In this document: one piece after another, positions 110 through 11,028 of the stretch | Position numbering within the stretch: the stretch's first letter is position 1 | Layout: every line of letters begins with the position of its first letter | Source of the DNA: an uncultured Ruminococcus sp. | GTDB taxonomy: Bacteria; Bacillota; Clostridia; Oscillospirales; Ruminococcaceae | Length of the DNA: 11,546 bases | Direction: 5' to 3' | Assembly: GCA_947176565.1 (NCBI GenBank) | Contig: CAMWRC010000017.1 | Location: 1-11,546 of the forward strand | Made by a program: the position numbers and the translations under genes | Notes under the pieces: model-generated | Told to the model about the DNA's origin: nothing | Seen by the model: the letters and a program-made list of their open reading frames with translations, nothing else | Database searches by the model: none

Positions 110-991
110 TTGAATAAACTGAAAAACCAATGCGGCAGACGCAATGAACGGATATTCAGTAATATCTGTATTCTGCCAAGTCTCATCGGTGTGCTTATAT
201 TTTTCTTAATACCGTTCGGAATAGTAGTATATTACTCGACAATAAATAATCCAATAACAAGACAGTTTGTAGGACTTGAAAATTATAAAAAGCTTTTTCA
301 GAACAGTGCATTGAAGCTTGCGGCATCGAATACGGCTTTGTTTTCGCTGATAGCCGTACCGCTTGCGATTATATTATCATTATGGCTCGCAATGCTTCTT
401 GAACGGAATATTCCGGCAAAGAGTTTTATACGGACACTTTTTCTCAGTCCGCTGATGGTTCCTACAGCATCGGTAGTTCTTGTATGGCAGGTGCTTTTCC
501 ATAATCACGGAACAGTCAATCAGTTTATCGAGATGTTCGGATTAAAGGGAATCGACTGGCTGCAATCGGATTATGGACAAGTAGTTATAATACTGATGTT
601 TCTGTGGAAGAATTTAGGATATAATATGATACTTTTCATGTCGGCTCTTGCAGGAATCCCAAAAGACCTTATTGAAGTCGCGGAACTGGAGGGCGCGGGA
701 AAATTATATCAGCTTATACATATAAAACTCAGGTATCTTTCACCGACAATGCTGTTTGTATTTATACTTTCGCTGATAAATTCATTCAAGATATTCCGCG
801 AGGTTTATCTTCTGACTGATGACCACCCGTATGACAGCATGTATATGCTACAGCACTTTATGAACAATACATTCAATAATCTTGACTATCAGAAATTATC
901 TTCGGCAGCTGTTTTGTTTTCTCTTGTGATGATTGTTGTAATTGCGGTGCTTCTCGTTCTTGAAAACATATTCGGAAAGGACGTGGAGTAA
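110..991 (+). CDS. Sugar ABC transporter permease, MalF/UgpA type (first of a pair)
   Basis: Inner-membrane subunit of a carbohydrate importer (binding-protein-dependent transport permease family, COG1175-like). The 293-residue protein has about six hydrophobic segments (near 20-42, 74-96, 107-130, 157-180, 211-229, 266-285). Between the fourth and fifth lies the cytoplasmic EAA loop that docks on the ATPase (residues about 189-212, with E189, A191, G195 and P212). In the usual I-x-L-P part of that loop the proline is replaced by Arg208. The start is a TTG at 110: the frame has a stop at 77-79 and no ATG or GTG before the first membrane segment. The ribosome binding site is weak (AAGGG at 91-95, rather distant). 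Its stop overlaps the ATG of the second permease by one base (TAATG), which implies translational coupling. Family assignment is firm; the transported sugar cannot be told from sequence. Confidence 0.93.
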   Translation: MNKLKNQCGRRNERIFSNICILPSLIGVLIFFLIPFGIVVYYSTINNPITRQFVGLENYKKLFQNSALKLAASNTALFSLIAVPLAIILSLWLAMLLERNIPAKSFIRTLFLSPLMVPTASVVLVWQVLFHNHGTVNQFIEMFGLKGIDWLQSDYGQVVIILMFLWKNLGYNMILFMSALAGIPKDLIEVAELEGAGKLYQLIHIKLRYLSPTMLFVFILSLINSFKIFREVYLLTDDHPYDSMYMLQHFMNNTFNNLDYQKLSSAAVLFSLVMIVVIAVLLVLENIFGKDVE

Positions 992-1881
992 TGACAAAAC
1001 GAAAAAAAGAATTGCTCCTGAACAGAATAGCAACAGTTTTTCTGGTACTTGCAGCATTCCTGTTTATTATGCCGATTATACTTACTATGGCGAATTCTTT
1101 CATGACATCTTCGGAAATTTCTGCAAACTATGGCGCAATGCTTGGCAACATGACTGAGGACAAGAAAGTATTTATTTCGGAAAATGTCAATCTGAAATTT
1201 ATTCCTGACAAAGTGACTTTTGAACAATATAAAAGCGTATTGTTGAAAAGTCCGGATTATCTGCTTAAATTCTGGAACTCTGTAGTACTTACGGTTCCTA
1301 TAACTGTTTTCCAGATAATTCTTGCGGTAATAACATCATACGGATTTTCACGATGTCCGAATAGACTGAAAAGCATAATATTCTTTATATATATCATACT
1401 TATGATAATGCCTTATCAGGTAACAGTTGTGCCGAATTTTCTGGTATCAGAAAAGTTCGGGATTCTCAATACAAGATGGGCGATAATACTTCCGGGAATT
1501 TTTTCGCCGTTCAGCGTGTTTCTGCTTACAAAGGTAATGCGGAGGATTCCGGAATCATACGTCGAAGCGGCGAAGCTTGACGGAGCAAATGAATTTCAGA
1601 TAATGACGAGAATATTTATGCCGCTGTGCAAGGGTGCAATTGTATCGGTTGCAATGCTAGTATTCATTGATTACTGGAACATGGTTGAACAGCCGATTAT
1701 ACTTATGAAAGATAGCGATATGCACCCGTTGTCGGTATTCTTATCACAGATAAATACCGGCGATATAGGACTTGCCTTTGCAGTAGGCGTGGTGTATATG
1801 GTTCCCGCGATACTTATGTTCCTGTACGGCGAGGACGACCTTGTAGAGGGAATAACTTATGCAGGCGGAATAAAGGGCTGA
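991..1881 (+). CDS. Sugar ABC transporter permease, MalG/UgpE type (second of a pair)
   Basis: Partner membrane subunit of the same importer (COG0395-like). The 296-residue protein has six predicted membrane segments (about 14-35, 98-118, 127-147, 163-181, 214-231, 260-280). It has a large extracytoplasmic loop after the first helix and a well-kept EAA loop at residues 190-214 (E192-A193-A194, D197-G198, then M210-P211). The C-terminal stretch, residues 284-296, resembles the conserved EGxTxGAVKG-type tail of MalG-like proteins. Length is normal for the family. The ATG at 991 sits inside the stop of the upstream permease gene. After its stop there is a 22-base gap carrying an AAAGGAAAG ribosome binding site for the next gene. 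With the first permease it should form the heterodimeric channel. An ATPase must be supplied from elsewhere, as is common for Firmicute sugar transporters that share an MsmX-like ATPase. Confidence 0.94.
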   Translation: MTKRKKELLLNRIATVFLVLAAFLFIMPIILTMANSFMTSSEISANYGAMLGNMTEDKKVFISENVNLKFIPDKVTFEQYKSVLLKSPDYLLKFWNSVVLTVPITVFQIILAVITSYGFSRCPNRLKSIIFFIYIILMIMPYQVTVVPNFLVSEKFGILNTRWAIILPGIFSPFSVFLLTKVMRRIPESYVEAAKLDGANEFQIMTRIFMPLCKGAIVSVAMLVFIDYWNMVEQPIILMKDSDMHPLSVFLSQINTGDIGLAFAVGVVYMVPAILMFLYGEDDLVEGITYAGGIKG

Positions 1882-1903
1882 TTGAAAGAAAGGAAAGATA
1901 TAA

Positions 1904-3700
1904 ATGGCTGATATTGAAATAAAAACAGAGGATAAAAATAATCCGCATTTCAGACGAGAGGTTATAAAAACTGTTCTTATTATATTTCTTGCGGTGCTTC
2001 TTGTGCTTACTTTCTGTTCAAATACAATACGGAACAAATCCCTTGCGGAGATTTCAACAGAACGTACCACAAGCGGAAAGCTTACTGAAAGATTACGCGG
2101 AAGCGGACTTGTTGAATCAAATCAGAGCTATGGCGTTACTGTTGACGGAAACAAAGTAATTGATACAATCATGGTTAAAACAGGAAAAGAAGTCAAAAAA
2201 GGTGATGTTCTGTTTACGGTCGGCACTGAGGAAAGCGAAGAGATTACAGATGCTGAGGACGCTTTAGCAGCACTTGAACTTGAATATAACAAGCTTCTGC
2301 TCACACCTCCGGCTGATTATACAGAAGAAAATCAGGCGATAAAAAATGCCCGCGATGACCTTTCAGCGGCGATTGCAGCAAGAGATAAAGCTGCGGCAAA
2401 TCAGGGGAATGAAGACGCGGCAAAACAGAATTATCAGTATAACAAATCGCAGCTGAATTATTATACAAAACTCCAGACAAAGCTTACAGCTATGGTTACA
2501 GCAATAGATACTGATGAATACGTCGGCGCGCCGGCAGAATATACAGGCGAACTTATAACTCTGCTGAATGCTTTGAATGACGCTGAAAAGGCGTATAACG
2601 AAGCTGTGGAAATATATACAGCTATGTTGTCAGGAGGCAGTCAATTTCCGGAAGATGATGAAATCATGACAGAACCGGGAGAAAATCAGTCAACAGGCAG
2701 ACCGGCAGGTCGGGAAGCGTCAGCAACTCCCGAAGAAACAGAAGCCGCAAGGATTGAAATGGAAAAGGCAGAAACCGCTCGCGATGCTGCTAAGAATACA
2801 TACAACAACCGGAAGTATGAACTCAGAAACGAATATGTCGCACAGCTTGAAGATGCAGAAAATAATGTCGATTACTATACATCGCTTACTGAGGATTATG
2901 AAATCGGTTCAGCAGGCAGCGGAATGACAGCCGCAGACCTTGATGATGATGTCCGTCAGAAACAGCGCGCCCTCGAAGACCTTATAGCGCAGCTTGACAA
3001 GACACAGAAAGAAAATGCAAATCAGGGAAAAATAGATAATCTTGATATTGAGGCTAAGAAGAAAGAAATCGAAAAGGCAAAGACAAAAATCAAAAAGCTG
3101 AAAGAAGAAAATTCTATTACAGAGATAAAGGCGGAACACAGCGGAATTGTCAGTAACATAAATCTCCGTGCCGGAGATGAAACTGTTCCTGATATGGACG
3201 TAATGACAATAGATATTGCAGAGGACGGCTACACAGTCAAGGTAACTGTTGAAGCAGAAAAGACAAAGAAAATCAAGAAAGGTACGGCGGCAGAAGTCGT
3301 TAATAACTGGAGCGGCGATATTGAAGCAGTACTTATGGATATACGCAATGATACAACGGCAAATTCAAAAAACCGCATACTTGTATTTGATGTGACAGGT
3401 GATGTTGATTCAGGTTCATATATTGATTTATCGATACCGTGCGGAAGCGGAAGTTATGATTCTATAGTTCCGAAAAGTGCGGTTCATGAGGACAGCGAGG
3501 GAAAATTTGTACTCGTGGTTGAATCGAAAAGTTCACCGCTCGGCAATCGTTACTATGCAAGACGTGTTCCGGTTGAGGTTCAGGCATCGGACGAGATTTC
3601 AAGCGCGGTTTCCGGCAGTATCTCCAACGGCGACTATGTCATAACAGCAGCAAGCGCACCTGTAAAAGCAGGCGACCAAGTACGTATGAATGACCAGTAA
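1904..3700 (+). CDS. HlyD/MacA-like membrane fusion (periplasmic adaptor) protein
   Basis: Membrane-anchored extracytoplasmic adaptor of the HlyD/MacA superfamily. These proteins normally accompany ABC exporters. The 598 residues read as: one N-terminal membrane anchor (about 21-39); first half of a lipoyl-like hairpin (about 75-108); a long alpha-helical coiled-coil hairpin (about 113-240 and 276-404) rich in Ala, Glu, Lys and Gln; second lipoyl half (about 405-430); a beta-barrel region (about 440-515); and a membrane-proximal domain (about 518-595). The coil is interrupted at about 243-280 by an acidic, Pro/Gly/Ser/Thr-rich segment that is probably disordered. The protein is longer than the roughly 350-450 residues usual for Gram-positive adaptors, mostly because of the coil. 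The start has a good ribosome binding site. It lies between sugar permeases and a MacB-core protein in one operon, which is odd for an exporter part. Superfamily is confident; role in this operon is inferred. Confidence 0.85.
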   Translation: MADIEIKTEDKNNPHFRREVIKTVLIIFLAVLLVLTFCSNTIRNKSLAEISTERTTSGKLTERLRGSGLVESNQSYGVTVDGNKVIDTIMVKTGKEVKKGDVLFTVGTEESEEITDAEDALAALELEYNKLLLTPPADYTEENQAIKNARDDLSAAIAARDKAAANQGNEDAAKQNYQYNKSQLNYYTKLQTKLTAMVTAIDTDEYVGAPAEYTGELITLLNALNDAEKAYNEAVEIYTAMLSGGSQFPEDDEIMTEPGENQSTGRPAGREASATPEETEAARIEMEKAETARDAAKNTYNNRKYELRNEYVAQLEDAENNVDYYTSLTEDYEIGSAGSGMTAADLDDDVRQKQRALEDLIAQLDKTQKENANQGKIDNLDIEAKKKEIEKAKTKIKKLKEENSITEIKAEHSGIVSNINLRAGDETVPDMDVMTIDIAEDGYTVKVTVEAEKTKKIKKGTAAEVVNNWSGDIEAVLMDIRNDTTANSKNRILVFDVTGDVDSGSYIDLSIPCGSGSYDSIVPKSAVHEDSEGKFVLVVESKSSPLGNRYYARRVPVEVQASDEISSAVSGSISNGDYVITAASAPVKAGDQVRMNDQ

Positions 3701-3705
3701 GGCGG
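3699..3705 (+). promoter_or_regulatory. Ribosome binding site that sets the start of the MacB-core gene
   Basis: AAGGCGG, close to AAGGAGG, overlaps the stop codon of the adaptor gene and lies 8 bases before the ATG at 3714. An earlier in-frame ATG at 3690 would sit inside the adaptor gene without a comparable site in front of it, so 3714 is the preferred start. Confidence 0.6.
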
Positions 3706-3713
3706 TGCTGTGC

Positions 3714-4808
3714 ATGAAATTCAGAAAGCTAATCTATTCTGCTGTCGCCGGTGTAAATATAATATCCGCGGCTGTATGGGTAATACTCACAGTTGCCGGA
3801 AATTCCATAGCAGAGTCGCAGAGCTATAATTACGGCGCGGAACGCTGGGACGAAAGCGGAGGCAGTACGCAGATAAGCTGTTTTTTTACCGAAGATGCCG
3901 GATTCACTACGGATATTGCAGGAGGAATCAGAGCGGATATGCTTTCTCAGCTTAAAAATATATCCATAGTGCCGGAGGAGGGAAAAGAACTTATTCCGGA
4001 GGCATACAGCACACCGGCAGGAAAAATGACAATCCGCTGTGATACAACAGGACGTTCCGAAGCGGAAGTGACAGCAGTAGGCGGAGACTTCTTTCTGTTC
4101 CGCGGATTCACGCTTCTGGACGGCGCATATTTCAGCAGTGATGACATAATGCAGGACGGCGCAGTAATTGACAGAGGGCTTGCATGGGCTTTGTACGGCT
4201 CTTACAACGTGGCAGGCATGAATATATACATCAACGGCACTAAATTCTACATTGCCGGAGTAATAGACAATCCGCAGACAAAAGAGGAAAAGCAGACAGC
4301 AGCGGAATTTCCCCGTGCATATATATCATATGACGGAATAAATCTTATACAGGGAACAGAATCAGCTCAGGAATCCGGCATAATGAAAAAAATCACCGTG
4401 TATGAATGTATTGCTCCGAATCCGGTTGAGAATTTTGCTTACAATGCGGTTTCGGAATATCTGAAATCGTCCTATGACGGTAAAGTCAGCGTAGTGAGCA
4501 ATTCTGAGCGTTTTCAGCCGTCAGTGAGAGCAAAGTCATTCCGGAAGCTTTCGGATTATGCCGTAGCCGATAAGCCGGTAGTATATCCCTACTGGGAGAA
4601 CGCCTCGCGGATAGCGGAGTTCAGACTCAGCGGAATATATTTTTACCGCCGTCTTACGTATGTGATTCCGGTGCTTACGATTCTGTGGCTGCTGTTCCTG
4701 CTGTACAGACTGATTGAAAAGACACGGCGTATGCTGACGGATAAGACAGCAGATGCAGTTACAAAAGCGATATACAGACATAATCAGAAGAAATATAAAG
4801 AAAATTAA
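3714..4808 (+). CDS. Membrane-anchored protein with MacB-like periplasmic core domain, lacking FtsX
   Basis: A 364-residue protein with one N-terminal membrane helix (about 8-28), an extracytoplasmic domain (about 40-300) and one C-terminal helix (about 315-333) followed by a short basic tail. Residues about 118-185 look like the MacB periplasmic core: a V-x-G-G-D-F segment, then a GFTLLDGAYF segment, an acidic residue pair, a conserved LAWALYG stretch, and a G-x-x-I-Y-I-N-G...I-A-G-V-I strand pair. MacB and LolC/E proteins carry this domain between helix 1 and a three-helix FtsX permease domain. Here the FtsX part is absent and only one helix follows, so it is unlikely to transport anything alone. 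A conserved-looking Y-P-Y-W-E-N-A motif lies at about 291-297. It follows the adaptor gene directly, repeating the MacA-MacB order. A start at 3690 would add eight residues. Function unknown; an assembly or sensing partner of the adaptor is a reasonable guess. Confidence 0.75.
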   Translation: MKFRKLIYSAVAGVNIISAAVWVILTVAGNSIAESQSYNYGAERWDESGGSTQISCFFTEDAGFTTDIAGGIRADMLSQLKNISIVPEEGKELIPEAYSTPAGKMTIRCDTTGRSEAEVTAVGGDFFLFRGFTLLDGAYFSSDDIMQDGAVIDRGLAWALYGSYNVAGMNIYINGTKFYIAGVIDNPQTKEEKQTAAEFPRAYISYDGINLIQGTESAQESGIMKKITVYECIAPNPVENFAYNAVSEYLKSSYDGKVSVVSNSERFQPSVRAKSFRKLSDYAVADKPVVYPYWENASRIAEFRLSGIYFYRRLTYVIPVLTILWLLFLLYRLIEKTRRMLTDKTADAVTKAIYRHNQKKYKEN

Positions 4809-4844
4809 AAATCAAGAAATAAAAAATCGAAAAGAGGAAATCAA

Positions 4845-7289
4845 ATGAATAAACTTGGAATTTTCAAAAAGACACTTGCGGCGATTCTTGCAGGAGCAGC
4901 GGTTCTTGCTTCTGTATCATGCGGAGAAAAAGGCGGAGAAAAAGTCGGAGACGAAAGCAGCAGCAGTAACAGCAGCGGCGGCGGAAATAATTCGGCAGCA
5001 ACACCACAGTCAGCTGATAAGGTAATGGATAAATCATATCAGGCTGTTGACATCGGACAAGCTCCGCCGCTTAAATACGTCAATGAAATCAAAACAATGG
5101 GCGATACCGGAAAAGTTATCATGTACGGAAGTACACAGGACGGCAACGAAATATATATTACAGATATGAACTTCGAGGAATATAAGAAAGTGGAGCTCAA
5201 ACTTCCCGAAGCTGATAATATCGAATCCTATTACAGGGTTGTTGTTGCAAAAGACGGCACGGCTTATGTTTTTGCTAACATTACGAATTACGGCGATTTT
5301 GAACTTCCTGACTATGAAGACCCTGATTTTGACTGGGAGAACTTCGATTATGAAGCAATGGAAGAAGCCGCAGAACGCAGTTATAAGATATATACTATCA
5401 GTCCGGACGGCGAAGCAAGTGACGGAATCGATATAACCGGACTTGAAAAATACGAAGATGATGATACTTATTTCGGCGAAGTTCTTATAACCGGAAATAC
5501 ACTGCTTCTTACTATCGGTACTAATTCCGGTCAAAAGTTTGTAGTTATAAATAATGATGGAAGTATCGGCGATGAGGTTGACTGCGGAGATGATTATTTC
5601 TATCCGTCCGGAATGGACAGCGATGGCAATCTTGCGTATATATCCTATTCCGGAAGCGATACTGTACTTAAGAAAATAGATGCTGAAACTTTGAGTTTAA
5701 GTCCGGACGAGATAAAGATTGAAGAAGCAGAAATGAATTACCGTGCTATATTTGCAGGCAGTGGTGATTATACAGTTTATCTTTCCGGTACTTCGTCACT
5801 TTACGGAATAAAGAAAGACGGAACTACAGATGAAATCATAAACTGGATAGATTCAGACCTTAATGGCGACTATATTGAAAGTTTAATTCCGGCAGGAAAT
5901 GATGAATTTATCGTCTATGAGAATAACTGGAACAGCAACACTACAAAATTCTACCGTCTTACAAAGCGTGATGCGTCTGAAATGGAGAATACACAGATAA
6001 TCAGCATGATGGTTCAATATGCAAATCAGGACGTTATGGACAAGGTAAGCCAGTTCAACAAGACAAATTCCGGCTACAGAATAAAAGTAGAGGACTATCA
6101 GAAATATTACGAGTGGGACGACGAATCACTCATAAGCAAGAACAATCCGGAAAAACAGCTCAAGCAGGATATAGCATCGGGCAAGAAATTTGATATTATC
6201 TGCATGAACAATTCATCTCTTATCATGAATCTCGGCAAAAAGGGCGCGCTTGTTGATTTGTATGAATATATCGACAAAGATGACTCACTCAGCAAGGAAG
6301 ATTTCATGCCGGCGGTGCTTAATGCTGGAGAGATTGACGGAAAACTCGTATCAATTTCCTCGTCGTTCAGTCTCGATACATATGCTTTGAAATCAAAATA
6401 TTTTGATAAGGAAAACTGGACAGTTGACGATATTATTGAAACATACAACAATCTGCCTGACGGAATGAAACTGCTTTCATACGGTAGCAGCAAACGCAGT
6501 GTATATGGTTTATTTGCGTATGGCGGCGGTACGGAATATATCGACTATGACAAGGGAACGTGCAGCTTTGATTCTCCGGAATTTATAAAGATACTGGAAT
6601 TCTGCAACCGTTTTGACAATGACGGCGAGGGCGATGAAATCGACTGGGAGACAGCTACCAATGATGAAATGGACAAGTACTACAATGAACAGGAAGTTGC
6701 CTGCCGTAATGACAAGGCACTGCTGAGAAGCGTATATTTAGGCGATTTACGCTCCTATGCACGTGCAGTAGCCGGTGATTTCGGCGATGATATAACTCTT
6801 GTAGGCTATCCCTCTGCTAACGGAGCAGGCGGTGCAGTTGCAAGCATGGGAATGAGCTATTCTATCATGTCGGATTCTCCTAATAAAGATGCGTGCTGGG
6901 ATTTCATCAATGATTTCTTTGAGGAAGAATATCAGACCAGTGAAGATATGTACAATATTCCGGCTATAAAATCAGCCTTTGAGGTAAAGCTCGATGAAGC
7001 CATGGAGAAGCCGTATTATATGAACAGCGAAGGCAAGAAAGAAACATATGATGATACATACTACATAGGCGGAGAGGAAATCAAAGTTCCGCCGCTTACA
7101 AAGGAACAGCGTGATAAGCTGGAAAATTACATTCTCAGCGGAAATAAAAGCAGTTATCACTATAATGACGAGGTAAGCACAATCATAGAGGAACAGCTCA
7201 ACGCATTCTTTGCCGGTGAAAAGACGGCACAGGAAACGGCGGAACTGATTCAGAACCGTGTATCTATCCTCGTAAGCGAACAGTCTTAA
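4845..7289 (+). CDS. Lipoprotein: propeller-like N-terminal domain fused to extracellular sugar-binding protein
   Basis: Substrate-capturing subunit of the importer, anchored outside the cell by lipid. The 814 residues begin with a type II signal peptide (basic K8-K9, hydrophobic 11-24, Cys26 after A-S-V-S), then a Ser/Gly/Asn-rich linker (about 36-52). Residues about 66-380 contain repeated beta-strand stretches with D-G or N-D-G turns (for example near 137, 188, 237, 259, 325), which suggests a beta-propeller-like fold. Residues about 385-814 match the family 1 extracellular solute-binding fold (COG1653-like): an opening strand followed by an amphipathic helix, a K-K-F-D-I-I stretch near 447-452, an LVDLYEYI segment near 469-476, and a late W-D-F-I-N-D-F segment near 685-691. 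Ordinary binding proteins are about 400-550 residues, so the N-terminal half is an addition. AAGAGG precedes the ATG at usual spacing. It is last in the operon, before the terminator. The ligand is unknown. Confidence 0.88.
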   Translation: MNKLGIFKKTLAAILAGAAVLASVSCGEKGGEKVGDESSSSNSSGGGNNSAATPQSADKVMDKSYQAVDIGQAPPLKYVNEIKTMGDTGKVIMYGSTQDGNEIYITDMNFEEYKKVELKLPEADNIESYYRVVVAKDGTAYVFANITNYGDFELPDYEDPDFDWENFDYEAMEEAAERSYKIYTISPDGEASDGIDITGLEKYEDDDTYFGEVLITGNTLLLTIGTNSGQKFVVINNDGSIGDEVDCGDDYFYPSGMDSDGNLAYISYSGSDTVLKKIDAETLSLSPDEIKIEEAEMNYRAIFAGSGDYTVYLSGTSSLYGIKKDGTTDEIINWIDSDLNGDYIESLIPAGNDEFIVYENNWNSNTTKFYRLTKRDASEMENTQIISMMVQYANQDVMDKVSQFNKTNSGYRIKVEDYQKYYEWDDESLISKNNPEKQLKQDIASGKKFDIICMNNSSLIMNLGKKGALVDLYEYIDKDDSLSKEDFMPAVLNAGEIDGKLVSISSSFSLDTYALKSKYFDKENWTVDDIIETYNNLPDGMKLLSYGSSKRSVYGLFAYGGGTEYIDYDKGTCSFDSPEFIKILEFCNRFDNDGEGDEIDWETATNDEMDKYYNEQEVACRNDKALLRSVYLGDLRSYARAVAGDFGDDITLVGYPSANGAGGAVASMGMSYSIMSDSPNKDACWDFINDFFEEEYQTSEDMYNIPAIKSAFEVKLDEAMEKPYYMNSEGKKETYDDTYYIGGEEIKVPPLTKEQRDKLENYILSGNKSSYHYNDEVSTIIEEQLNAFFAGEKTAQETAELIQNRVSILVSEQS

Positions 7290-7334
7290 TTACGACAGCT
7301 ACAAATTTTTATATACTCCACCTCCTTACTTAAA

Positions 7335-7372
7335 GGCGAACCTCTGTAGAAATACAGGGGTTCGTCTTTTTT
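7335..7372 (+). terminator. Intrinsic terminator of the transporter operon
   Basis: A 14-base-pair stem (GGCGAACCTCTGTA with TACAGGGGTTCGTC, two G-U pairs) closes on a GAAA tetraloop at 7349-7352 and runs directly into six T residues. It starts 45 bases after the stop codon of the binding-protein gene. This is a strong rho-independent terminator and it separates the operon from spoIVB. Confidence 0.95.
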
Positions 7373-7418
7373 ATAAAAAAATAATAATACTGACATTTTA
7401 TTTGAGATTATTTTTCAA

Positions 7419-7447
7419 GCATAATGCCCATACTTGTATATATAATA
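7419..7447 (+). promoter_or_regulatory. Possible sigma-G/sigma-F-like promoter of spoIVB
   Basis: GCATA at 7419-7423 is followed after 17 bases by TATAATA at 7441-7447. From memory, sigma-G promoters have a G-C/T-A-T-A/G -35 element and a C-A-T-x-x-T-A -10 element; the match is full at -35 and lacks only the first base at -10. The -10 also fits sigma-A, but the bases at the sigma-A -35 position fit TTGACA poorly. Expression of spoIVB under forespore sigma factors is established in Bacillus. The call rests on pattern only, in very AT-rich DNA. Confidence 0.4.
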
Positions 7448-7452
7448 ATATA

Positions 7453-7473
7453 GCCGGAAATCAGGTTTCCGGC
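7453..7473 (+). promoter_or_regulatory. Perfect inverted repeat (hairpin) in the spoIVB leader
   Basis: GCCGGAAA and TTTCCGGC form a perfect 8-base-pair stem around the 5-base loop TCAGG. It lies between the possible promoter and the GGAAAGGGG ribosome binding site, and no T-run follows, so it is not a terminator. It may stabilise the message, affect initiation, or be a protein-binding palindrome. Confidence 0.5.
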
Positions 7474-7489
7474 GGAAAGGGGAAAATTT

Positions 7490-8662
7490 GTGAAAAAAAA
7501 TTTTATTAAAAAAGTGGCAGCAGGTATACTTTCCGCAATGCTGCTGGGATTATTCGGGGTTGCCGGATATTATTCCTCACATCTTCCCGACAGCGTTACC
7601 ACAGAGACAGGAGCAGTGCATTTCGGAGCGTATCCCAAGCTTACAGCGGATTATATATCAGAGGATAAGGCGGCAGTTTCGCTTATGGGAGCTATACCGG
7701 TGAAAAGCGTAACAGTGAACTGCGAAGAAGCTCCGACGCTTATTGCAGGCGGAAATCCGTTTGGAATAAAGCTTCTCATGGAGGGCGTAATGGTTACAGG
7801 AGTGGGTGAAGTTGACGGAAAATCCAGTCCTGCCGAAGATGCCGGAATAATGCTCGGAGATGTCATAACTCATGCAGATGATACTCCGCTTGCATCAAAT
7901 ACTGATTTACAGCGGATAATAAGCGAAAGCGGCGGCAGAGATATTGACCTTGATATAAACCGTTCCGGAGAGCATATGACAGCGGTGCTGAAGCCGGTGT
8001 ATTCCGAGAAAAGCTCCACATACAAAGGCGGAATGTGGGTTCGTGACAGTATAGCCGGTATAGGAACTATGACATTCATAGACGCAGCTACAGGACGTTT
8101 TGCAGGACTCGGACACCCTGTATGCGACAGCGATACGGGAGAGATGATACCGATTCAGAGCGGTGAAGCAGTTCCTGTGAAAATTACAGAGGCAAGAAAA
8201 GGCGAACCGAGCCGACCGGGTGAACTCCATGGGCAGTTTTCGGGTTCTAACGTATACGGAACGCTGAATATGAACAGCGGCTGCGGAGTTTTCGGAACTC
8301 TTACAGAAACGGCAGTCGAAAAGCTTGCGGACAGCGGAACGGCTTACAAAATGGGCTATCGTCAGGATATACAGATAGGAAGCGCATATATTCTTGCTAC
8401 GGTATCGGGTAAGAGTCCGAAAAAATATGAAGTTCAGATAGAAGCGGTTGATTACAACAGCCGTGAGCTTTCAAAAAATATGATAATACGGATAACTGAC
8501 GAGGAATTAATAAAATCCACGGGCGGAATTGTGCAGGGAATGAGCGGAAGTCCGATAATACAGAATGACCGGCTTATCGGAGCGGTTACTCATGTATTTG
8601 TGGCTGACCCTACGCGCGGCTACGGAGTTTTTGCAGAAAATATGTATAACAGCATGGATTAG
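7490..8662 (+). CDS. spoIVB: SpoIVB-type sporulation serine peptidase (S55) with PDZ domain
   Basis: In Bacillus, SpoIVB is secreted from the forespore into the intermembrane space, where it cleaves SpoIVFA and so releases the SpoIVFB protease that processes pro-sigma-K. This 390-residue protein has an N-terminal membrane anchor (about 9-28), a PDZ domain (about 95-165) and a C-terminal S55 peptidase domain (about 180-388). The catalytic residues known from B. subtilis (H236, D363, S378 and T393, recalled from memory) have counterparts in matching motifs at nearly the same spacing: H209 in GLGHP, D337 in ITDEE, S352 in GMSGSP and T367 in AVTHV. The enzyme therefore looks intact. The start is GTG at 7490, seven bases after GGAAAGGGG. 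The B. subtilis protein is somewhat longer (about 426 residues). It stands alone, flanked by terminators, without recN or spo0A alongside. Confidence 0.93.
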   Translation: MKKNFIKKVAAGILSAMLLGLFGVAGYYSSHLPDSVTTETGAVHFGAYPKLTADYISEDKAAVSLMGAIPVKSVTVNCEEAPTLIAGGNPFGIKLLMEGVMVTGVGEVDGKSSPAEDAGIMLGDVITHADDTPLASNTDLQRIISESGGRDIDLDINRSGEHMTAVLKPVYSEKSSTYKGGMWVRDSIAGIGTMTFIDAATGRFAGLGHPVCDSDTGEMIPIQSGEAVPVKITEARKGEPSRPGELHGQFSGSNVYGTLNMNSGCGVFGTLTETAVEKLADSGTAYKMGYRQDIQIGSAYILATVSGKSPKKYEVQIEAVDYNSRELSKNMIIRITDEELIKSTGGIVQGMSGSPIIQNDRLIGAVTHVFVADPTRGYGVFAENMYNSMD

Positions 8663-8692
8663 AAAATTATATCTGTTAAAAATCGGGAATAT

Positions 8693-8736
8693 GAAAAAAT
8701 AAGGGCTGACACAGGAACAAAGACCTGCATCAGCCC
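8693..8736 (-). terminator. Intrinsic terminator of ptsH (reads on the minus strand)
   Basis: GGGCTGA (8703-8709) pairs with TCAGCCC (8730-8736). A 2x2 CA/CA internal loop follows, then CAGG (8712-8715) pairs with CCTG (8724-8727). On the minus strand the stem is followed by TTATTTTTT (8702-8694), the T-run expected of a rho-independent terminator. It begins 22 bases after the ptsH stop. No T-run follows on the plus strand, so it is not a clear terminator for the convergent spoIVB. Confidence 0.85.
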
Positions 8737-8758
8737 AATTAGCTGGCATAGTGATAGT

Positions 8759-9031
8759 TTATCTGTTTTCCTCGCTGAAACCGCTGTCAACAAGTTCAAT
8801 AAGAGCGTCTACAGCAGCTCTTTCATCTGAGCCGTCAGCAATAATTTTCACATTAGTTCCGCCAACGATACCGAGTGAAAGGATTCCGAGGAGGCTCTTG
8901 GCGTTTACTCTGCGTTCTTCCTTTTCAATCCAGATTGAGGACTTGAACTCGTTAGCTTTCTGAATGAAGAAAGTAGCAGGTCTTGCGTGAAGACCAACCT
9001 GATTTTTTACCAATACTTCTCTGACAAACAT
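8759..9031 (-). CDS. ptsH: Phosphocarrier protein HPr of the PTS sugar system
   Basis: Small cytoplasmic phosphocarrier that takes phosphate from enzyme I (PtsI) at a histidine and passes it to sugar-specific IIA proteins. In Firmicutes it is also phosphorylated on Ser46 by HPr kinase to drive CcpA catabolite control. The 90-residue chain carries the active-site motif GLHARPA with His15, and NAKSLLG with Ser46. Both land on canonical numbering if translation begins at the ATG at 9031. A TTG two codons upstream (9037) is in frame, but AGGAGAG at 9044-9038 is spaced for the ATG. The presence of His15 distinguishes it from the HPr-like regulator Crh. It stands alone, with its own promoter and terminator; no ptsI follows it in the window. 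It could serve mainly in regulation if the strain has few PTS permeases, but that cannot be judged here. Confidence 0.95.
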   Translation of the reverse strand: MFVREVLVKNQVGLHARPATFFIQKANEFKSSIWIEKEERRVNAKSLLGILSLGIVGGTNVKIIADGSDERAAVDALIELVDSGFSEENR

Positions 9032-9037
9032 ATACAA

Positions 9038-9044
9038 CTCTCCT
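9038..9044 (-). promoter_or_regulatory. Ribosome binding site of ptsH
   Basis: On the minus strand AGGAGAG is followed by six bases (TTGTAT) and the ATG at 9031. The spacing decides for this ATG over the in-frame TTG at 9037, which would directly abut the site. Confidence 0.75.
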
Positions 9045-9057
9045 ATCTCTGTAATGG

Positions 9058-9074
9058 CGTACTGTATCAGTACG
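9058..9074 (-). promoter_or_regulatory. Perfect inverted repeat in the ptsH leader
   Basis: CGTACTG and CAGTACG, a perfect 7-base-pair palindrome around TAT, lie between the ptsH promoter and its ribosome binding site, about 27-43 bases downstream of the predicted transcription start. It could be an RNA hairpin or a dyad operator. It has no T-run after it. No known riboswitch or cre site is recognised in it. Confidence 0.5.
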
Positions 9075-9107
9075 TCTCATGCAAATATTTTTCAATTGCT
9101 GTAATAT

Positions 9108-9136
9108 ATTATACATTCATTTTTCAACATAGTCAA
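9108..9136 (-). promoter_or_regulatory. ptsH: Sigma-A promoter of ptsH
   Basis: On the minus strand, TTGACT (9136-9131) and TATAAT (9113-9108) are separated by exactly 17 bases. This is a near-consensus vegetative promoter with one mismatch at -35. Transcription should start near 9101 and give a leader of about 70 bases before the ptsH ATG. High constitutive expression would suit HPr. Confidence 0.88.
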
Positions 9137-9335
9137 CGGATTTTTGAGTTAAAAACGAGACTTTGACGAATTTTCTACATTTAAGTGCAATGAATGGAGA
9201 AAAACACGGCTGACCTTGTGAATATTCACTACACCATATATGAATAAATCATGAACAGAATATTAGTAAACTTCCATAGTTTTTAGCGGCAAAATATGTA
9301 GAATATACCCAAATCAAAATTCCGGATAAACTATA
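9137..9335. other. Noncoding spacer between trmD and ptsH
   Basis: AT-rich stretch with no convincing coding frame, tRNA or intrinsic terminator for trmD. The visible structure is a 12-base perfect palindrome GTGAATATTCAC at 9218-9229. There is also an 8-base inverted pair, TTCTACAT at 9173-9180 and ATGTAGAA at 9296-9303, too far apart to be impressive. Either could be chance in DNA of this composition. Confidence 0.5.
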
Positions 9336-10028
9336 CTAATTGGAGTTATATTTTTCATACAAATCGGGACGGCGTTCTTTTGTGAGTTCAATACTCTGTT
9401 CGTGCCGCCATGTTTCGATATTCTTATGATGACCGGAAAGCAGAACAGCCGGAACAGATTCGCCCTCCCATATTTCCGGGCGGGTGTAATGCGGATATTC
9501 AAGCAGTCCGCTGTAGATACTTTCATCAGTGAAACATACTTCATCAGAAAGAACACCGGGGCAGAGACGGGCTACTGCATCAGTAAGCACGAGAGCCGGA
9601 AGTTCTCCGCCGGTAAGAATATAATCGCCTATGGATATTTCCTCATCAACGATTTTGTCAATTACACGCTGGTCGACACCTTCATAGTGACCGCATATAA
9701 TAAGGATATTATCCATTCGGGCAAGTTCTGATACACGCTGTTCGGTGAGGATTTTACCTTTCGGAGACATATATATTGTATGCGGAACTGTTCCCATATC
9801 GGCGCATACGGCTTTATAGCAGTTATAGATTGGTTCGCACTGCATAACCATGCCCATACCGCCGCCGTATGGTGTATCGTCAACACGGCGGTGCTTATCC
9901 TGAGTATATTCCCGTATCTGCCGGCATGAAACGTTTATTTTTCCGGCTTTTCTTGCACGTCCCACGATACTTTCGCCGAGGACGGTTTCGCACATTTCCG
10001 GAAAAAGTGTTGCAATTTCTATTCTCAT
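9336..10028 (-). CDS. trmD: tRNA (guanine-37-N1) methyltransferase TrmD
   Basis: Cytoplasmic SPOUT-class enzyme that uses S-adenosylmethionine to methylate G37 next to the anticodon, which prevents +1 frameshifting. The 230-residue protein is of normal length. It shows the N-terminal MRIEIATLFPEM start, the DDTPYGGGMGM stretch at 50-60, the SAM-binding knot around CGHYEGVDQRV (112-122), SIGDYILTGGE (132-142), Arg154, and the LLEYPHYTRP segment (175-184). Asp168, just before this last segment, probably corresponds to the catalytic aspartate of E. coli TrmD (position recalled from memory). The ATG at 10028 overlaps the rimM stop by one base (TGATG), with GGAGGG 12 bases upstream inside rimM. 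It is last in its operon; the rplS gene that often follows is replaced by spacer and then ptsH. No clear terminator was found after it. Confidence 0.97.
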   Translation of the reverse strand: MRIEIATLFPEMCETVLGESIVGRARKAGKINVSCRQIREYTQDKHRRVDDTPYGGGMGMVMQCEPIYNCYKAVCADMGTVPHTIYMSPKGKILTEQRVSELARMDNILIICGHYEGVDQRVIDKIVDEEISIGDYILTGGELPALVLTDAVARLCPGVLSDEVCFTDESIYSGLLEYPHYTRPEIWEGESVPAVLLSGHHKNIETWRHEQSIELTKERRPDLYEKYNSN

Positions 10029-10528
10029 CAGTCAAACAATCCCTCCAGCGGTCTTATTATCATGATATTATCATCAATATCTGTTGATATAACAACATCG
10101 GGAATAGCAGGTACAAGATATTCCCTGTCGCCTTTGATAACATAGACATCATTTGCGCCGTTCTGGAGTACGTCTGTGATTTTTCCATAGATAAATTCAC
10201 TGTCAGCGTCTTTGACTTCCATACCGATTAAATCCTGTATGAAATAGGTATCCTCATCGAGTTCGAGGTCATCGCGGTGCATGAAAAGCACCTTATTGCG
10301 GAGCTTTTCGGCTTCCTCAACAGTATTTACGCCCTCTATTTTTGCGATTATCATATTCTTGAAAACACGGCTCTTTTCGATAAATATTTCATTGTGATTC
10401 TTGCCGATAAAAAGCCTTTCAAATTCGCACAGCAATTCAGAGGAATCAGTGTATGGCATGATTTTGACTTCGCCGCGTATGCCGTGAGTAGTAACGATTT
10501 TTCCTGCTTCCAGATATTCTTTTTTCAT
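10028..10528 (-). CDS. rimM: Ribosome maturation factor RimM
   Basis: Assembly factor for the 30S subunit that binds ribosomal protein S19 and helps mature the head domain of 16S rRNA. The 166-residue protein has the usual two parts. The N-terminal beta-barrel opens with the signature EAGKIVTTHGIRGEVKI (about 7-23). A C-terminal PRC-barrel begins near the DLIGMEV segment and contains GKITDVLQNGANDVYVI and the typical LVPAIPDVV and final PLEGLFD motifs. Length is normal. GGAG precedes the ATG by about ten bases. It overlaps the upstream hydrolase gene by four bases (ATGA) and the downstream trmD by one, so the three are probably translationally coupled. The rimM-trmD pairing is common across bacteria and supports both calls. 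Confidence 0.96.
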   Translation of the reverse strand: MKKEYLEAGKIVTTHGIRGEVKIMPYTDSSELLCEFERLFIGKNHNEIFIEKSRVFKNMIIAKIEGVNTVEEAEKLRNKVLFMHRDDLELDEDTYFIQDLIGMEVKDADSEFIYGKITDVLQNGANDVYVIKGDREYLVPAIPDVVISTDIDDNIMIIRPLEGLFD

Positions 10529-11028
10529 TTTATCAATTCTCCGAAAAATTCTTTTAGCGGAAGTGTTGCTCCCGAATGTTTACCGTCAGGAATGACAGTA
10601 CAGTTTCTGATAATTTTCATTGTTACATTTTCGTGATAGTTTATAACTTCGTCCTGACCGCCTATTATTGCATATGTTTTTTCAGGGTCTGCTGAAAAAT
10701 CATTGAAAAAGTTTACAAGAGATATATATCCGTTGTAGCCGAGTTCAGGGAGAGTAATTTCCGGCATAAGGCACGGATTGACAAGTATAACAGGAACGCT
10801 GTTTTCTGCTGATACAAGAAGTGCAAAAGCTCCGCCTAAACTTGTTCCGACGATATAATCAGGCATATTTTCTGTGAATATTTTTCGCAGATTATCGAGG
10901 ATATTTTCAAATGATTCCGTGTCGTAGTCAATCTGCGGGGAAATCACATCGAATCCCATTTCTTTCAGCACAAGACAGGCGGAATTTTCCACACTGCCTT
11001 TGTAGCCGTGTATGTTGAGTATTTTCAT
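10525..11028 (-). CDS. YqiA/UPF0227-like alpha/beta hydrolase (putative esterase)
   Basis: Small single-domain alpha/beta-fold hydrolase of 167 residues, similar in layout to the YqiA/YcfP (UPF0227) esterase family. It has an N-terminal strand ending in N-I-H-G-Y (5-9, probable oxyanion loop). The nucleophile elbow is GTSLGG with Ser63. Asp126 lies in GGQDEV and His151 in DGKHSG, so a full Ser-Asp-His triad is visible. There is no signal peptide, so it should act in the cytoplasm. E. coli YqiA hydrolyses short acyl esters in vitro; the natural substrate is unknown. AAGGA precedes the ATG. It starts 21 bases after the XRE gene stop and its end overlaps rimM by four bases (ATGA), so it is translated as part of the rimM-trmD operon. 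A link to translation is suggested only by position. Confidence 0.82.
   Translation of the reverse strand: MKILNIHGYKGSVENSACLVLKEMGFDVISPQIDYDTESFENILDNLRKIFTENMPDYIVGTSLGGAFALLVSAENSVPVILVNPCLMPEITLPELGYNGYISLVNFFNDFSADPEKTYAIIGGQDEVINYHENVTMKIIRNCTVIPDGKHSGATLPLKEFFGELIK

Follow-up and report, generated by a model that had tools for sequence, protein, structure and literature searches.

A Ruminococcus operon joins importer permeases and a solute-binding lipoprotein to a MacA-type adaptor and a MacB core, suggesting an uptake system with a stalk

ATP-binding cassette (ABC) systems for import and for efflux are usually treated as separate architectures. Here, we describe an operon from an uncultured Ruminococcus sp. 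in which genes of both kinds are joined. The stretch of DNA analyzed, henceforth termed the window, is one complete contig of 11,546 bp (CAMWRC010000017.1) from a draft genome that is 66% complete. Its forward strand carries five genes at positions 110–7289, each overlapping the next or at most 36 nt away from it in the list of open reading frames (ORFs). They encode two permease subunits of the CUT1 type, termed PermF and PermG, a MacA/HlyD-type adaptor, a MacB-core protein, and a solute-binding lipoprotein (solute-binding protein, SBP). The coupling of importer genes with those for the adaptor and the MacB core is solid, and we moderately favor the explanation that the products form one transport system and not two, namely an importer powered by ATP whose stalk descends from a pump of the MacAB type. 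The data suggest an undescribed uptake machine whose stalk reaches into the cell wall. If true, this would add a new way of organizing transport where the wall is thick and account for the role of some Gram-positive adaptors.

An initial annotation of the window, made from the sequence alone, had proposed this five-gene set, and profile searches together with predicted folds confirmed all of its identities. PermF (110–991, TTG start codon, MalF/UgpA-type) and PermG (991–1881, MalG/UgpE-type, overlapping the PermF stop codon by 1 nt) match the Pfam family BPD_transp_1 with 64.4 and 50.0 bits, respectively (cut-off 26.4). The top NCBIfam models for the two proteins, UgpA and GlcU, score far under their own cut-offs, and we therefore describe the permeases as CUT1-like and assign no substrate. 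For the adaptor (1904–3700), assignment is weak on Pfam alone, with 26.4 bits for HlyD_D23 (below the cut-off of 30) and 22.6 bits for HlyD_3 (cut-off 22.2), and is upheld by a profile match to MacA (4dk0, E = 1.9e-11) and by the predicted fold. Its AlphaFold2 model (mean predicted local distance difference test score (pLDDT) 86, predicted template modeling score 0.45) comprises one N-terminal transmembrane (TM) helix, a split lipoyl domain, β domains, and a long helical hairpin at residues 112–402. The best fold matches in Foldseek are MacA (E = 4.5e-14), MexC-like, and AcrA adaptors. As estimated from the model, each hairpin arm has about 130 residues and would extend at most about 190 Å if straight; PMC5768738 gives a height of about 154 Å above the membrane for a pneumococcal MacAB-like assembly. 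Since profile matches and predicted folds concur, an annotation artefact is ruled out.

The MacB-core protein (3690–4808) matches MacB_PCD with 34.7 bits (cut-off 27) and the profile of MacB 3ftj with E = 9e-8. Its AlphaFold2 model (mean pLDDT 94.4) contains a helix at residues 4–43, the periplasmic core, and a 71-residue last helix at residues 301–371, and Foldseek returned MacB 5gko (E = 6.1e-11) as well as YknZ, Spr0695, and LolE. Model and hydropathy agree on two TM helices, versus four in MacB; TM3, TM4, and a nucleotide-binding domain (NBD) are absent. In MacB, as PMC5985334 describes its mechanism, both stalk helices connect to the porter domain, which receives the motion of the NBD via the membrane part. 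Because only the core and two helices remain, the window protein is not an ATP-driven MacB by itself. The two-TM topology is general in the genus, where two helices are predicted in 67 of 68 MacB cores and one in the remaining protein. Across the order, two helices are predicted in 23/32 MacB cores and four or five in 5/32, and among more distant MacB-like proteins two in 32/58 and four to six in 20/58. Both full MacB controls, weak MacB matches from MacA-ATPase-MacB exporters (loci L050 and L101 in our numbering), have four. Where the source gives a name for homologues of the MacB core (120 of 419 listed, few of them named), it is mostly 'ABC transporter permease', a label that would need correction for a protein with two TM helices and no ATPase. 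Close homologues of the core that carry an organism name are assigned to Ruminococcus.

The SBP (4845–7289) matches SBP_bac_1 at residues 399–697 (44.0 bits). Its C-terminal domain is near CbpC (7x0o, E = 1.4e-36), with Lmo0181 also among the closest proteins, both of them oligosaccharide-type binding proteins. The large N-terminal domain, which gives weak WD40/NHL matches, is likely a β-propeller. The lipobox cysteine, Cys26, is invariant in 50 aligned SBP sequences. Up to nine large-SBP matches occur in one genus genome (best eight candidates scored), and SBP paralogues without recognized adjoining permeases are found at L098, L099, and L102–L108. Such paralogues possibly feed one permease hub; the genes beside the orphan paralogues, when examined, gave no hint of a substrate.

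Accessory-linked permease runs occur in Ruminococcus, other families of its order, Lachnospiraceae, Clostridium, and Paenibacillus. Merging identical permeases reduced 193 runs to 187 distinct ones; ORFs shorter than 100 aa were not used, and the re-fetched loci L199, L230, and L272 were excluded from the run, gap, and adaptor/TM tallies. Three of the 187 runs contain ordinary permeases, 14 are cut by contig ends, and 170 are usable, where the classes 'other order', 'cut', and 'none' rest on gap and contig-end limits that we set. Adaptor and MacB core are both present in 153 of the 170 usable runs, and a full-length adaptor in 165. The order PermF–PermG–adaptor–MacB core is kept in 152 runs (64 from the genus, 30 from the order, and 58 more distant), while L167 has all parts in another order. 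The gap between adaptor and MacB-core genes is at most 150 nt in 152 of the 153 cases measured. Exactly this four-gene block plus an SBP gene makes up 89 of the 187 runs and is the commonest pattern, so the arrangement with permeases first and binding protein last, which the initial annotation had called uncommon, is the usual one here.

Within the genus, the genes are present or absent together. Across 72 genomes (G000–G071), the MacB core was found in 66 and the permease in 65, the G035 copy being a contig-cut piece; both are present in 64, neither in five, and the three discordant genomes all involve contig ends (G011 at L177, G069 at L064, and G070 at L094). Two of the genomes lacking both, G013 and G063, are 98% and 96% complete. 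An SBP gene directly follows the four-gene block in 59 of 64 genus runs; L063, L069, and L076 lack it, and L093 and L097 end there. When 394 genomes of the order were queried with the L100 permease from another family, a group scored at least 317 bits, followed by nothing until 251 bits or less. In the phylum, eight of 398 genomes, the window's own included, match the more distant type of permease (E ≤ 1e-50). Scanning named genomes yielded at least 585 relatives, of which the best 80 were kept; these include Paenibacillus, Cohnella, Butyrivibrio, Clostridium, Anaerocolumna, and many Lachnospiraceae. The co-occurrence and order that the initial annotation had proposed to look for in related genomes thus extend to many Firmicutes genera, and this recurrence in genus, order, phylum, and named genomes rules out a strain-specific accident. 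The outcome that would have refuted the initial annotation, an association confined to this strain, was not observed.

The linked permeases are distinct from ordinary CUT1 permeases. Twenty other MalF-type loci were fetched in the genus: 14 ordinary ones (178–190 bits), none of which has an adaptor or MacB core, and the six next-closest (303–321 bits), which belong to a second Ruminococcus system described below. In a quick tree of 93 rows (66 randomly drawn linked permeases, six from the second system, and 21 ordinary ones), the 72 linked permeases fall on one side of a branch and the 21 ordinary ones on the other (Shimodaira–Hasegawa-like approximate likelihood ratio test support 98). A loop signature accompanies this clade. 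In PermF it spans residues 226–253, from FKIFRE to QHFMNN (window positions 785–868, forward strand), in the loop before the last TM helix. Of 191 linked permease ORFs, a number that includes refetched copies, 190 carry the motif QHxxNN and 179 carry FKxFRE, versus 0/14 ordinary controls for each; these counts are partly circular for the 80 named-genome loci (that scan used such patterns), whereas the context counts are not circular. Permeases of the second system carry QHxxNN in 6/6 and FKxFRE in 5/6 cases. A GGP segment occupies this site in many ordinary MalF proteins, and 8/14 ordinary controls contain one. In the usual permease topology, the EAA loop is cytoplasmic, which places the signature loop on the extracytoplasmic side, where a docking partner would sit. 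The EAA-type loop itself appears intact: read by eye in 11 aligned sequences of PermF, residues E208, G214, A215, and P231 are invariant, in keeping with the consensus for coupling to a MalK-type NBD.

The distribution of ATPase genes points the same way. With one query and a threshold of >150 bits, no MacB-type ATPase was found in any of the 187 permease runs; in five loci such a gene lies within 9 kb yet outside the run. A MalK-type ATPase gene is present in 15/187 runs and lies directly 3′ of the MacB core in 13 of these 15. All four MalK-type genes that were typed (L142, L151, L154, and L194) carry OB_MalK. Of 75 genus genomes, 67 contain an OB_MalK ATPase, with exactly one copy, encoded elsewhere, in 38/38 good genomes; G033 and G055 have two. 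Since one unlinked OB_MalK ATPase per good genome stands beside one to eight MalF-type matches (E ≤ 1e-8), the genus displays the pattern of a shared MsmX-type ATPase, in agreement with the guess of the initial annotation. A shared MsmX/MalK-type ATPase serving several CUT1 importers is described in PMC7658222.

Adaptor length, MacB TM number, and SBP size covary over 149 loci, a table to which L167, with its other gene order, does not belong. An adaptor of at least 480 aa occurs with at most three TM helices in 127 loci, a short adaptor with at least four TM helices in 19, and three loci (L215, L218, and L259) are intermediate, with a long adaptor, a large SBP, and four TM helices. In the quick tree, L218 and L259 together split off ahead of the other sampled long-adaptor members; this correlation on few lineages suggests that long stalk and large SBP predate the loss of TM3 and TM4.

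In the single type I importer that we favor, driven by ATP, the two CUT1 permeases would make up the membrane channel and the lipoprotein would be the binding protein; the motor would be the MsmX/MalK-type ATPase of the genome, whose gene lies elsewhere in the genus. Adaptor and MacB core would go back to a pump of the MacAB/YknXYZ type. The ATPase of that pump is missing from the operons, its TM3 and TM4 would have been lost in this lineage, and both proteins would now belong to the importer as dedicated subunits on the extracytoplasmic side. The adaptor, probably a hexamer as MacA is, would rise through the wall space and form a stalk or tube, the MacB core would act as a collar seating it on the permeases, and the lipoprotein would pass an oligosaccharide-like solute through or beside the adaptor. 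We infer the formation of one physical complex, the path, and the substrate, as well as the direction of transport, which rests on the protein families. We consider it an evenly balanced question whether this constitutes a new ABC architecture, that is, a type I importer whose extracytoplasmic face is a captured, motor-less MacAB pump and whose MsmX/MalK-driven channel is fed via a stalk spanning the Gram-positive wall space. Such an architecture would come in two forms. In the short-stalk form, exemplified by Paenibacillus and Clostridium, a multi-TM MacB-like protein would accompany a plain SBP; in the long-stalk form of Ruminococcus and many Lachnospiraceae, the core would have two TM helices and the SBP would be large and probably carry a propeller.

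Several observations weigh against the single-importer explanation. Twelve runs, all from Paenibacillaceae, have a full adaptor without a MacB core, and the second Ruminococcus system likewise has an adaptor and no MacB core in all six loci. In the second run of L171, a MacB core is present and no adaptor ORF reaches 100 aa, L201 and L206 have an adaptor stub of 136–148 aa only, and at L203 and L258 a linked-clade permease stands without a convincing adaptor. Few events on the tree may account for the joint change in adaptor, MacB core, and SBP. The window's own draft, 66% complete, yielded no OB_MalK ATPase, and a different ABC ATPase lies with a DUF6449 protein just upstream in Butyrivibrio and at least one other genome. 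The gene neighborhood, too, is unlike that of a simple nutrient importer. Upstream neighbors (116 of 133 same-strand genes scanned, top 25 families displayed, as for all neighbor and control scans) are led by histidine kinases (13) and OmpR-type regulators (11). Adjoining glycosidases are few, with GH1 in 2/116 upstream and 1/85 downstream genes and GH53 in one, whereas 14 of 75 proteins in the control scan match GH88.

The initial annotation had left open whether importer and exporter parts form a single system or two systems co-transcribed for one substrate. The latter, a CUT1 importer next to a MacAB-like exporter that borrows an unlinked ATPase, would fit the MacA and MacB homology of the two accessory proteins, the four to six TM helices predicted in 20/58 distant MacB-like proteins, and the ABC ATPase just upstream in Butyrivibrio. 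We nevertheless regard it as unlikely and favor a single system, because no MacB-type ATPase (one query, >150 bits) was found in any of the 187 runs, a MalK-type gene directly follows the MacB core in 13 of 15 MalK-bearing runs, and the permeases form their own accessory-linked clade; the MacB cores of the genus, moreover, are two-TM proteins in 67/68 cases and one-TM in the other. Rather unlikely, too, is a sensory or envelope-defence machine in the style of Bce modules, which would bind an envelope-active compound or glycan and report to an OmpR-type two-component system, with transport secondary. Two-component genes are indeed the commonest upstream family; kinase or regulator genes of the OmpR type were identified upstream in Paenibacillus and Anaerocolumna and, in divergent orientation, beside the second Ruminococcus system (by typing of L279). 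The scarcity of adjacent glycosidases would suit such a role. Yet no two-component gene was recognized after the window operon, the operon is preceded by tRNA genes in the six scanned relatives, and the SBP domain is closest to the oligosaccharide-type proteins CbpC and Lmo0181. A third alternative, that adaptor and MacB core are conserved neighbors without contact, merely co-regulated and acting on another transporter or on wall enzymes, takes up the 12 runs in which the adaptor stays without a MacB core. Tight overlaps across genera, joint presence and absence in genus genomes, and the linked permease clade with its loop signature make it very unlikely.

Within the open-licence papers to which our literature search was limited, we found no description of an importer combined with an adaptor and MacB core. 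CUT1 importers that share an MsmX/MalK ATPase (PMC7658222) likewise have two BPD_transp_1 permeases and an SBP_bac_1 lipoprotein, and the single unlinked OB_MalK of good genus genomes fits them. The window system differs from them by two additional membrane-anchored extracytoplasmic proteins of exporter origin, its own permease clade and loop signature, and few glycosidases alongside. With the MacAB, YknWXYZ, and Spr0693-0694-0695 pumps (PMC5768738 and PMC5985334), it shares side-by-side genes for a MacA-type adaptor and a MacB periplasmic core, and its folds match MacA, MacB, YknZ, and Spr0695. Unlike these pumps, window-type runs lack a MacB-type ATPase, the MacB core of this lineage has two TM helices, the adaptor hairpin is longer, and both proteins are coupled with importer permeases and an SBP. 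Type VII (mechanotransmission) ABC proteins such as FtsEX and LolCDE (PMC5985334) also hold a core domain on two membrane helices, and LolE is among the fold matches. The window MacB core differs in having no NBD and no TM3 or TM4, and MacB-style mechanotransmission is therefore not expected from it alone.

Gene neighborhoods give a few further indications. Since the window is the entire contig, the assembly holds no sequence before base 1, where the initial annotation had suggested looking for an ATPase or MacB gene; several draft contigs, the window included, start shortly 5′ of PermF. In all six relatives scanned for RNAs (L031, L033, L035, L036, L041, and L048), three divergent tRNA genes lie ahead of PermF instead, which rules out an ATPase gene immediately ahead of the operon. 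After kinases and regulators, the next upstream families are ECF transporter components and ABC ATPases (four each), the latter undercounted because the genes dropped from the scan include most Butyrivibrio ABC/DUF6449 pairs. In typed examples, an ABC ATPase of about 300 aa and a DUF6449 protein of about 720 aa lie immediately 5′ of the permease gene (L213, 7023–10062; L195, 10521–13587), and pairs of similar size, judged by length, occur in L223, L228, L254, L264, and L267. In two Clostridium species, the upstream neighbors are a DUF4230 protein (L209, 9043–9630) and a D-alanyl-D-alanine carboxypeptidase (L207, 6637–7530). No recurrent family emerged among the 85 of 99 downstream same-strand genes scanned.

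The control scan covered 72 of 115 genes from the 14 control loci, with permeases and small ORFs omitted, plus three genes from L279; its GH88 count is for all 75 proteins jointly. The ordinary CUT1 loci of the genus (L285–L298) lie near GH88 genes. GH88 enzymes act on unsaturated glucuronyl or rhamnogalacturonan substrates, which hints at such substrates for the ordinary loci. The substrate of the window system may be an envelope or signaling glycan and not food.

The second Ruminococcus system (L279–L284, about 650–10300) consists of a large SBP, two permeases, and an adaptor of 350–468 aa. Genes of the size of a kinase and a regulator are divergent from it in 6/6 loci, typed as an OmpR-type regulator and a kinase in L279. 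This second system is present (L283) in G063, a genome without the main operon.

As the initial annotation had noted, a single strong terminator closes the operon in the window. It is an intrinsic terminator at 7332–7369 on the forward strand, with a 17-bp hairpin (−26 kcal/mol, z −9.4) followed by a U-run; the output of a simple terminator scanner did not contain it. The downstream genes lie outside the operon unit. At 7490–11028, SpoIVB is followed by HPr, TrmD, and RimM, with a UPF0227 hydrolase on the opposite strand, and parts of this order recur 3′ of the operon in several relatives, for example L036 and L051. An 8-bp inverted repeat lies at 7453–7473, just 5′ of the SpoIVB start.

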